A DNA stretch of 45,373 nt from a virus, in the IMG/VR virus record IMGVR_UViG_3300017598_000369, positions 1-45,373 of that record; one strand, written 5' to 3'. Of the stretch, positions 10,579 to 45,373 are shown one piece after another. Under the pieces are notes generated by a model. The model was given only the letters and a program-made list of their open reading frames with translations. It was not told the DNA's origin and searched no databases. Numbering within the stretch: the stretch's first letter is position 1; each line of letters opens with the position of its first letter. The translations under genes and the position numbers were made by a program.

Positions 10579-10613
10579 TAGTCTCTCCTAAATAAAATGA
10601 ACTCCTAATTCAT

Positions 10614-15335: not shown

Positions 15336-15701
15336 TTAGTCATCTTCTCCCATCGCTTTCAACAGCTCTTCAGCTCTACTTTCCGGAGTATCTATATTAT
15401 GCACAACCTGCCTATCCACAAGCCCATGGTTCGCTTTTAATAGGAATATAGCCATGGATGCCACCCAGTCACCAGAAAGACCTTTTTTCATTAAATAACT
15501 CTTCTGTAAGCCCTTAATTCTTTTACATGTCTCGGAAAACGCATCATGAATTTTCTTCCATTCATGCGCTGTGTCTGGATTAATATCTAAGTAAACAGAT
15601 AGATCTTCAATAGTTGCTAACTGCTCTTTCTTCCTGCAATTCTCTATATATTTATCCGCTTTTTCTTGAAGTTTTTTGTCGTATTTTGTAGGTCTTGCCA
15701 C
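15336..15701 (-). CDS. Terminase small subunit
   Basis: 121 residues from GTG 15701 (MARPTKYDKKLQEKADKYIE), with GGGGGC upstream. The N-terminal helix-turn-helix (TIEDLSVYLDINPDTAHEWK, about 34-53) is the DNA-recognition part. The C-terminal SGDWVASMAIFLLKANHGL (about 83-101) is typical of small terminases of Gram-negative phages. It recognises the packaging site and regulates the large subunit. Separated from the large subunit by about 1.3 kb of small genes. Confidence 0.85.
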   Translation of the reverse strand: MARPTKYDKKLQEKADKYIENCRKKEQLATIEDLSVYLDINPDTAHEWKKIHDAFSETCKRIKGLQKSYLMKKGLSGDWVASMAIFLLKANHGLVDRQVVHNIDTPESRAEELLKAMGEDD

Positions 15702-15747: not shown

Positions 15748-15776
15748 ATTATACAGGAAAATAGGCTATTTGTCAA
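15748..15776 (-). promoter_or_regulatory. Consensus promoter for terminase small subunit
   Basis: Minus strand TTGACA (15776-15771), 17-bp spacer, TATAAT (15753-15748). Predicted start near 15741, 40 bases before the GTG. It begins almost immediately after the small-RNA terminator U-tract. Confidence 0.9.
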
Positions 15777-15778
15777 GT

Positions 15779-15821
15779 AAAAAAAATAGGGTGCACAGTG
15801 GAGAGATACTGCACACCCTAT
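15779..15821 (-). terminator. Strong intrinsic terminator of the small RNA
   Basis: Minus strand stem ATAGGGTG-TG-CAGT / ACTG-TG-CACCCTAT with an 8-base loop, then eight T. The two TG/TG positions pair as G-U wobbles in RNA; on the plus strand they would be A-C mismatches, so the element is built for leftward RNA. It also ends transcription from the glucosaminidase gene. Confidence 0.9.
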
Positions 15822-15848
15822 AAAGGAGAGAAGGAGTTTGTGAAAACT
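15779..15848 (-). ncRNA. Candidate ~70-nt small RNA with anti-Shine-Dalgarno segments
   Basis: A perfect promoter at 15855-15883 should start transcription near 15848. The transcript meets a 14-bp hairpin with two G-U wobbles followed by eight U, ending near 15779. No reading frame fits. The unpaired 5' part contains ACTCCTTCTCTCCTTTA and the hairpin loop contains ATCTCTCC, both complementary to GGAGAG/AAGGAG ribosome sites used in this genome. A short leaderless transcript with own promoter and terminator is the simplest reading; its regulatory role is inferred. Confidence 0.65.
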
Positions 15849-15854
15849 AGACAT

Positions 15855-15883
15855 ATTATACATTAATGATATTCATTTGTCAA
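15855..15883 (-). promoter_or_regulatory. Consensus promoter of the candidate small RNA
   Basis: Minus strand TTGACA (15883-15878), 17-bp spacer, TATAAT (15860-15855). It overlaps the stop region of the glucosaminidase gene and has only a 70-base unit downstream before a strong terminator. Confidence 0.9.
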
Positions 15884-17189: not shown

Positions 17190-17372
17190 CTAAATACTAT
17201 ATCGTTCACACGCATCGCCTATACCATTTCTATTGTCGTCCTGCTGTGCCTCATTTGGAACACTAGGACAGTTATCAACCTGGTTAGCAATACCGTCATT
17301 ATCCGCATCTCTTATCGGATTATAGATATTACATCCTAAAGCGAAAAATGTCAAGAAAAAAATTATTTTCAT
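17190..17372 (-). CDS. Lipoprotein with thrombospondin type 3 repeat
   Basis: 60 residues. Signal [14 protein letters not shown] ends in a slightly non-standard lipobox (ALGC). The mature part is one TSP3 calcium-binding unit: [19 protein letters not shown] then [17 protein letters not shown]3 repeats are usual in large outer-membrane proteins such as OmpA/OprF-type, rarely alone. The ATG overlaps the lysozyme stop (ATGA) with GGAGG upstream, so it is co-translated with a lysis enzyme. Outer-membrane spanin subunit, calcium-dependent envelope factor, or superinfection lipoprotein are possible. Confidence 0.8.
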
Positions 17373-23416: not shown

Positions 23417-24303
23417 TAACAGTATCTTTTGGAGAGAGTATAAGAAAACCTGACCAGATATTTCAATATGGGTCACTGGAAGATCTTCTTAAATGGCAAG
23501 CACTAAGCGAAAAGCAGGAAAGTAAAATAGAGGATCTGCAAAATGAGACTGATCCAGACAAGCGAAAATTAATTAAAAACCAACTACCTTATATAGTAGG
23601 TTCTGTGTTCCAACCTGAAGTCAGAAAAGCCGGAAACCTAAAAAAGAGCAATTTGATGATTTTTGATGTGGATAAAATTGTTAATGTGGAAGAGCTGTTT
23701 GGTACACTCAAATCTGAGCCGTTTGTTTGTTTTATTTTCAGGTCACCGTCAGGTAACGGCATTAAATTCGGGGTAAAATTAAAAAACAATATAACTGATC
23801 CTGAGTTATTCAGCAATGTGTATAAATATGCAAGCAAAAAGTTATCCAATTTCTATAATATCGAATTAGATAAAACGAGCGATTGTAGCCGTGCGTGTTA
23901 TCTGGGACATGATCCAGATTATTTCTACAATCCCAATAGCGTTGGATTTCCCCTTAGATACGATGTTGAGAAACCGATTGAGCAATTTCTAGCAGAGTTT
24001 GAAAATGATCCAGATATTGAAATACAGATAATTAAAGAAATATGCCAAACCATGTCAGTTGGTAATTACAACGACTGGGTGACGTGTGCGGCTGCCCTAG
24101 CCACTTTAGGTGGTATAGGTGAAAATATGTTTATTACGCTAAGTACTGGGAAGGGCTATAAGGATTCTGTTTCCGCTCTGAGAAGGAAATTTAAAAGTTT
24201 TAGCGCAAGTGGTGGTGTGCAAATAGGCTCATTTTTCCACATAGCGCAACAAAATGAAGTGGATATAAAGGAGATTAGAAGGAGATATTATGGAAAGCGT
24301 TAA
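23413..24303 (+). CDS. VirE-N / PriCT-2 primase-like protein
   Basis: 296 residues. N-terminal part (about 60-165) matches the VirE N-terminal/BT4734 pattern: NLMIFDVDKI, FIFRSPSGNGIKFGVKL, then CSRACYLGHDPD. The C-terminal part (about 205-285) matches PriCT-2: YNDWVTCAAALATLGG and KSFSASGGVQIGSFFHIAQQ. These are found with archaeo-eukaryotic-type primases in mobile elements. It may prime or assist replication; a primase active site is not certain. It overlaps the C5 methyltransferase by 14 bases. Confidence 0.82.
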   Translation: MITVSFGESIRKPDQIFQYGSLEDLLKWQALSEKQESKIEDLQNETDPDKRKLIKNQLPYIVGSVFQPEVRKAGNLKKSNLMIFDVDKIVNVEELFGTLKSEPFVCFIFRSPSGNGIKFGVKLKNNITDPELFSNVYKYASKKLSNFYNIELDKTSDCSRACYLGHDPDYFYNPNSVGFPLRYDVEKPIEQFLAEFENDPDIEIQIIKEICQTMSVGNYNDWVTCAAALATLGGIGENMFITLSTGKGYKDSVSALRRKFKSFSASGGVQIGSFFHIAQQNEVDIKEIRRRYYGKR

Positions 24304-25102
24304 TGTACTAAGTTTATTTGATGGTATGAGTTGTGGTAAAATAGCTTTGGATCGTGCAAATATTTCGGTGGGAGAATATTTTGCAAGCGAAATTGATAAA
24401 TATGCAATAAAAGTTTCAAATGCTAATTACCCAGATATTACTCATGTCGGTGATGTTGTGAAGTTGTCAGAAATGCTTGCTGTATTTCCAGAAACATTGG
24501 GTAAAATTGATTTATTAATCGGGGGTAGTCCATGCCAAGGATTTTCTTTTGCAGGTAAACAACTTAACTTTGATGATCCAAGGAGTAAACTTTTCTTTGA
24601 GTTTGTGAAGATTAAAAATTTACTTAAGCCTAAATATTTTTTACTAGAAAATGTTAAAATGAAAAAAGAAAGTCAAGACGTTATATCAGAAATAATGGGT
24701 GTTGAGCCTATAGAGATTAATAGTTCTTTAGTTTCTGCACAAAATAGAAAACGCCTATATTGGACTAATATCCCAGGGGTCGTACAGCCAGAGGATAAGG
24801 GTATCTTAATAAAGGATATGTTAGAATATGGTGTTGTTGACAGAGATAAATCATTTTGTCTGGATGCTAATTATTTTAAGGGCGGCAATTTAAAGCAATA
24901 TTTTGAGAAACACAGGAGACAATTAGTTTTTAATGAGGATGGAGATTATAGGAAACTCACGCCCTTGGAATGTGAACGGCTTCAAACAGTACCGGACAAC
25001 TACACAGCCCACGTCAGTAATACACAACGATACAAAATGTTAGGAAATGGATGGACAGTTGATGTAATAGCACATATATTTAAAAACATGGAGATATTAT
25101 GA
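24290..25102 (+). CDS. DNA (cytosine-5) methyltransferase
   Basis: 270 residues with all main motifs: I (LSLFDGMSCGKIAL), IV (GGSPCQGFSFAG, catalytic Cys82), VI (LLENVK, 119-123), VIII (QNRKRLYW, 151-158), IX (RKLTPLECERLQTVP) and X (LGNGWTVDVIAHIF). It is the short, DNMT3-like phage subtype with a small target-recognition segment. It should methylate cytosine C5 at a specific site as restriction protection. GAAGGAG precedes the ATG. Overlaps RusA by 4 bases. Confidence 0.95.
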   Translation: MESVNVLSLFDGMSCGKIALDRANISVGEYFASEIDKYAIKVSNANYPDITHVGDVVKLSEMLAVFPETLGKIDLLIGGSPCQGFSFAGKQLNFDDPRSKLFFEFVKIKNLLKPKYFLLENVKMKKESQDVISEIMGVEPIEINSSLVSAQNRKRLYWTNIPGVVQPEDKGILIKDMLEYGVVDRDKSFCLDANYFKGGNLKQYFEKHRRQLVFNEDGDYRKLTPLECERLQTVPDNYTAHVSNTQRYKMLGNGWTVDVIAHIFKNMEIL

Positions 25103-25857: not shown

Positions 25858-25915
25858 TAATATAATAAAGGGTGTAATGATAGGAAGTTTTATTTTAGCA
25901 ATGATAATAATTTAA
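25847..25915 (+). CDS. 22-residue membrane peptide
   Basis: From ATG 25847 with GGGGAGG upstream; overlaps the preceding gene by 11 bases. One hydrophobic helix (NIIKGVMIGSFILAMIII). Very short; support is the ribosome site and tight spacing to neighbours. Confidence 0.5.
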   Translation: MSVSNIIKGVMIGSFILAMIII

Positions 25916-25925
25916 GGAGAGTATT

Positions 25926-26069
25926 ATGAATAGTGCATACGTAAAAATATGTGATGAGATAAATAAACTCATCGAAGAAAGAAATAAGTTTTTCATACTG
26001 TTTGATATAGGTAGCATGGTACTAATGATGATAATCGGGTTTATTATCGGCGTAGTGGTGATGTTATGA
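25926..26069 (+). CDS. 47-residue membrane protein
   Basis: From ATG 25926 with AAGGAGAG upstream. Charged N-terminal helix (KICDEINKLIEERNKF) then a C-terminal transmembrane segment (MVLMMIIGFIIGVVVML). Overlaps the next gene by 4 bases. Its AAGGAGAG ribosome site is an exact complement of CTCTCCTT in the candidate small RNA. Confidence 0.68.
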   Translation: MNSAYVKICDEINKLIEERNKFFILFDIGSMVLMMIIGFIIGVVVML

Positions 26070-45249: not shown

Positions 45250-45373
45250 TTAATCTGAAAAAGTTTCAACTGAAGTTCCACCGGTTACGGTATAACCCAT
45301 AATGGTTAGATTGGCAACTGTTAACGTGTCAGTCTCTTTAGCTACTCCCGCTTCTGTGTCAGTAGATGCACCA
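45250..45373 (-). CDS. Repeated C-terminal end of the junction-spanning head gene
   Basis: Same frame as 1-774. It supplies the stop TAA (45252-45250) of the decoration-like gene and repeats its last 40 codons because of the 121-base overlap. Not a separate gene. Confidence 0.88.
   Translation of the reverse strand, partial: GASTDTEAGVAKETDTLTVANLTIMGYTVTGGTSVETFSD
45253..45373. repeat. Terminal direct repeat (right copy)
   Basis: Exact copy of 1-121. See the left copy. Confidence 0.93.

Follow-up and report, generated by a model that had tools for sequence, protein, structure and literature searches.

The DNA analysed here (the window) is the whole stretch of 45,373 nucleotides of the IMG/VR virus record IMGVR_UViG_3300017598_000369. 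Its predicted small RNA unit is located on the minus strand, with a glucosaminidase-domain lysis-type gene on one side and terS, the gene of the terminase small subunit (15336–15701, minus strand), on the other, in agreement with a sequence-only reading that had placed it between lysis and packaging genes. The consensus sigma-70 promoter recognized by the same reading (15855–15883) consists of TTGACA at 15883–15878 and TATAAT at 15860–15855 with a 17-nt spacer between them, and 6 nt separate TATAAT from the predicted start A15848. The window has three copies of the exact 29-base promoter pattern, where shuffles predict 0.06. With the start taken from the promoter and the end from the terminator, the predicted RNA covers positions 15779–15848 and is about 70 nt long.

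The only close relative found, IMG/VR 3300017598_000612 (L002, 45,754 bases), includes the same unit. In both phages terS has a consensus promoter of its own, located in the window right after the small RNA terminator (15748–15776, minus strand) and beginning 2 nt past the U tract; in the relative it lies at L002 5930–5958. As terS is thus provided for, the only evident purpose of the first promoter is to make a short RNA. The roughly 70 bases had also been described as lacking a reading frame, and no ORF of at least 60 aa was found inside the unit among the window ORFs. A peptide-coding reading was rejected because the comparison with the relative revealed a 1-nt indel and no shared start codon.

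Some further features of the surroundings were recorded. The glucosaminidase-domain ORF overlaps the small RNA promoter at its −35 hexamer in the window (15873–15883; stop at 15873) and has an earlier stop in the relative. Beside the endolysin gene, an ORF at 17190–17372 is predicted to encode a lipoprotein of 60 aa with a thrombospondin type 3 repeat, which may belong to the lysis cassette. The relative has a tRNA-Tyr gene with encoded CCA (L002 5762–5846) that separates the terminator of the small RNA from the terS promoter; this tRNA matched Campylobacter phage tRNAs only in part. No tRNA was found in the window. The ends of the window are identical over 121 bp (1–121 and 45253–45373), and the relative also has 121-bp ends, with different break points. 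These repeats are consistent with complete circular assemblies and lie in both records elsewhere than the small RNA unit.

Structure and conservation of the predicted small RNA

The window RNA was predicted to fold with −21.5 kcal/mol (z = −6.8), and none of the 200 shuffles folded as well; for the RNA of the relative z was −6.6. The predicted fold starts with a short 5' hairpin, AGUUU-UCAC-AAACU (15835–15848, minus strand), which has the same stem in the relative with the loop UCAC changed to UUCAU. The conserved CU-rich linker ACUCCUUCUCUCCUUUA (15821–15837, minus strand; ACTCCTTCTCTCCTTTA as DNA at 15837–15821) is predicted to be mostly unpaired, includes two anti-Shine-Dalgarno words and is the proposed main pairing region. 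The terminator hairpin (15821–15786, minus strand), evident from both the sequence and the predicted fold, has 14 pairs and an 8-nt loop ATCTCTCC (AUCUCUCC as RNA; 15800–15807, minus strand), and it ends in the U tract (15779–15786, minus strand). The motif UCUCUCC is present twice, in the linker and in the terminator loop.

The 14-bp hairpin of the sequence-only reading was thus recovered, as were its CU-rich 5' part and loop. Its eight U were only partly so: the U tract is present, but the stem is followed by seven further T, the eighth being the last paired base. Also the G-U wobbles behave as described, since the two G-U pairs of the stem exist in the minus-strand RNA only and would read as A-C mismatches on the opposite strand. 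The possibility of a plus-strand RNA of the CsrA type, with GGA loops, was rejected: U tract and promoter both belong to the minus strand, and a plus-strand stem would carry these two mismatches.

The RNA body (AAACUCC...UUUUUUU; L002 5688–5758) was identical between the two phages in 59 of the 60 columns, the exception being one single-base indel. The fourfold-degenerate codon positions of the common genes were 49% identical, the proteins flanking the unit 69%, and the aligned DNA on average 73% (61-column windows). A run of 57 identical positions would have a probability of about 2e-18 at the rate of the fourfold sites, a value that serves as a yardstick only, since intergenic DNA differs from codon third positions. 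Several coding stretches were conserved about as well as the RNA body, which is itself non-coding, and local exchange between the phages is a possible source of the identity within the unit. The promoter hexamers were largely kept in the relative (11 of 12 positions) while the spacer had drifted and is 16 nt there; the start region and the U tract were kept as well, and the spacing of promoter, start and terminator is the appropriate one in both phages.

Conservation of the hairpin and of both CU-rich segments, the absence of which in relatives would have counted against the sequence-only reading, was almost perfect in this one diverged relative. The comparison covers the window and a single close relative, so that compensatory changes in the terminator stem cannot be counted. 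The unit has two properties of the general class of trans-acting phage small RNAs: its own promoter and intrinsic terminator with no conserved ORF, and conservation exceeding that of its surroundings (59/60 columns vs 49% of fourfold sites). Judged from these comparisons, the unit is very probably the gene of a small RNA, conserved under selection. It would be a compact, strongly selected RNA of an uncultivated phage, detected without transcriptome data.

Searches for further homologues of the unit recovered only the known relative. INPHARED gave no sequence match to the small RNA. Three DNA-pattern scans of viral contigs, a 16-mer scan and a scan of genome contigs yielded the relative and otherwise nothing but unrelated or CT-repeat matches. 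TerS and TerL scans, both single and aligned, added only distant TerS/TerL relatives, and no such small RNA unit was present in their fetched flanks. No single host emerged from the protein matches: TerL, major capsid and portal proteins matched phages of many hosts with less than 60% identity, and the methylase reached approximately 69%.

Predicted pairing with ribosome sites

The best reading of the unit, and on balance a probable one, is a trans-acting small RNA that would pair with ribosome sites and block translation. According to this proposal, a stand-alone phage gene would give rise to a trans-acting RNA of about 70 nt, the linker of which would pair with Shine-Dalgarno sequences of the AAGGAG/GGAGAG type, aided by the loop and the 5' arm, and in this way ribosome binding would be blocked. 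Host mRNAs are possible additional targets. The pairing with ribosome sites proposed by the sequence-only reading fits the anatomy of the RNA and is backed by a best predicted target on which the two phages agree, but it is a prediction only.

The target scan included approximately 95 candidate starts per genome in both phages. When only the linker was allowed to pair, start 24290 ranked first in the window (−24.1 kcal/mol) and start 12087 second in the relative. With the 5' half of the RNA, the same starts were at the top of the two scans (−27.9 and −27.2, respectively). They represent the same junction, following a primase-like ORF, and the own RNA of each phage gave the stronger duplex with its own junction site. 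The best predicted phage target (24264–24299, plus strand) includes a double Shine-Dalgarno, the AUG (24290) and the first codons of the C5 methylase gene. The pairing would then take place at the gene start right after the primase-like ORF of the plus-strand replication operon in both genomes, with two Shine-Dalgarno words, the AUG and early codons available. The gene at the junction differs between the phages, being a C5 methylase in the window and a RusA-like gene, the orthologue of window 25099, in the relative. The C5 DNA methylase gene of the window (24290–25102) is situated between the primase-like and RusA-like genes and is absent at the junction of the relative.

Among 250 shuffles of the 5' half, the top starts were concordant in seven and none of these was as strong, a result that is partly post hoc because the 5'-half scoring was picked, out of several scorings tried, after cofolding had suggested longer pairing. 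When the costs of unfolding were included, the junction ranked second in the window and fifth in the relative, and 5/500 and 79/500 shuffles, respectively, did as well. The shared core alone was equalled by 25/400 shuffles, and the observed energy was reached by 471/3000 flank shuffles in the window and 62/3000 in the relative. Over all starts the mean linker energy was −11.6, and −10.5 with shuffles; a CU-rich RNA of any kind pairs with Shine-Dalgarno sequences to some degree. Furthermore, the protein-coding role of the target site may explain its conservation. The modelled pairing at the 24290/12087 junction is suggestive only.

Two other sites were considered. The GGAGAGA ribosome site (10582–10588, minus strand) of a 52-aa ORF (10578–10420) is a predicted candidate target, and the orthologue in the relative shares GGAGAGA. 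The example given by the sequence-only reading, AAGGAGAG (25914–25921, plus strand), is indeed present upstream of the start at 25926, but it is a weak candidate, with a linker duplex of −11.9 vs −24.1 kcal/mol at 24290 and a 7-nt match in the relative. Any single target is at this stage a modelled hypothesis. If the junction is the true target, a unit of the lysis-packaging region would be linked to RNA control of the replication operon.

Alternative explanations

The two chief alternatives are an RNA that acts by binding a protein and a packaging site in the DNA next to terS. A real RNA could work through a protein such as ribosomal protein S1, Hfq or some other pyrimidine-binding factor, or else through a second RNA. 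Pyrimidine-rich single strands suit binding proteins of the S1 or Hfq kind, and such strands are present here. The terminator stem is unchanged as well, and the letter-for-letter conservation of the entire body goes beyond what pairing of linker and loop alone would need. However, the linker closely matches the complement of Shine-Dalgarno words, and the two phages agree on the best predicted target beyond the shuffles; action via a protein or another RNA appears rather unlikely.

Still less probable is a site acting as DNA just upstream of terS, for example a pac or cos site for the terminase. Packaging sites are often in or near terS, the unit is beside terS in both phages, and it includes a conserved imperfect palindrome and the repeated 7-mer GGAGAGA. 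The correctly distanced promoter and the U tract on the same strand nevertheless point to an RNA, the stem mismatches pair only as G-U in the minus-strand RNA, and the tRNA insertion splits the unit from terS in the relative.

Equally doubtful is a role in cis only, as no more than a terminator or a leader (attenuator) that separates the lysis genes from the tRNA and terS downstream of them. A terminator would be expected between the lysis and tRNA/terS modules. The tRNA-Tyr of the relative, starting 3 nt past the U tract, has no promoter of its own and no room for one, so that read-through of the terminator is needed there. Against this, a consensus promoter serves terS itself in both phages, and a plain terminator would not keep its linker and loop letter-for-letter. 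It is similarly improbable that the RNA serves as a general regulator of the anti-Shine-Dalgarno type, by which the phage would imitate the 16S rRNA tail and shift translation in the infected cell between classes of ribosome-binding sites.

Comparison with known small RNAs

A trans-acting small RNA pairing with ribosome sites, the favoured reading, has counterparts in both phages and bacteria. The c4 RNA of P1/P7, sar of P22, DicF, VpdS and PreS are likewise short phage RNAs regulating phage or host mRNAs, and c4 blocks a ribosome-binding region (PMC12197685). The phage small RNAs covered by this recent review come largely from enterobacterial phages, and its table, unlike the present case, describes none as a dual CU-motif anti-Shine-Dalgarno RNA (PMC12197685). 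Stretches of the streptococcal csRNAs are the complement of ribosome sites and of AUG start codons (PMC4507080), and the 5' arm of the RNA of the relative is similarly complementary to a Shine-Dalgarno plus AUG. The csRNAs differ in being 87–151 nt long, chromosomal, multicopy and under CiaR, whereas the unit described here is a single phage copy with a consensus promoter.

Rfam searches gave no match at gathering, and the permissive matches to LhrC and ncr982 were at chance level. With the Listeria LhrC model (RF00616), the RNA of the relative scored 16.3 bits (E 2.5) and the window RNA had no match up to E 10; Rfam membership is unsupported, as the best scores are far below the gathering cut-off of 110 bits. 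In LhrC, redundant CU-rich motifs in loop A, the linker and the terminator loop bind the lapB mRNA over its Shine-Dalgarno region (PMC4132741). The RNA described here shares with LhrC the hairpin, the single-stranded linker, the terminator and the redundant CU-rich motifs, UCUCUCC being present in both linker and terminator loop. In LhrC, however, the motifs are CUCCC and also in loop A, while the 5' loops of the two phages (UCAC and UUCAU) have no CU-rich motif, and the Rfam model is approximately 111 nt long against about 70 nt here. The likeness is a resemblance of layout and not proof of descent, and a similar architecture is found in bacterial RNAs that act by blocking ribosome sites.
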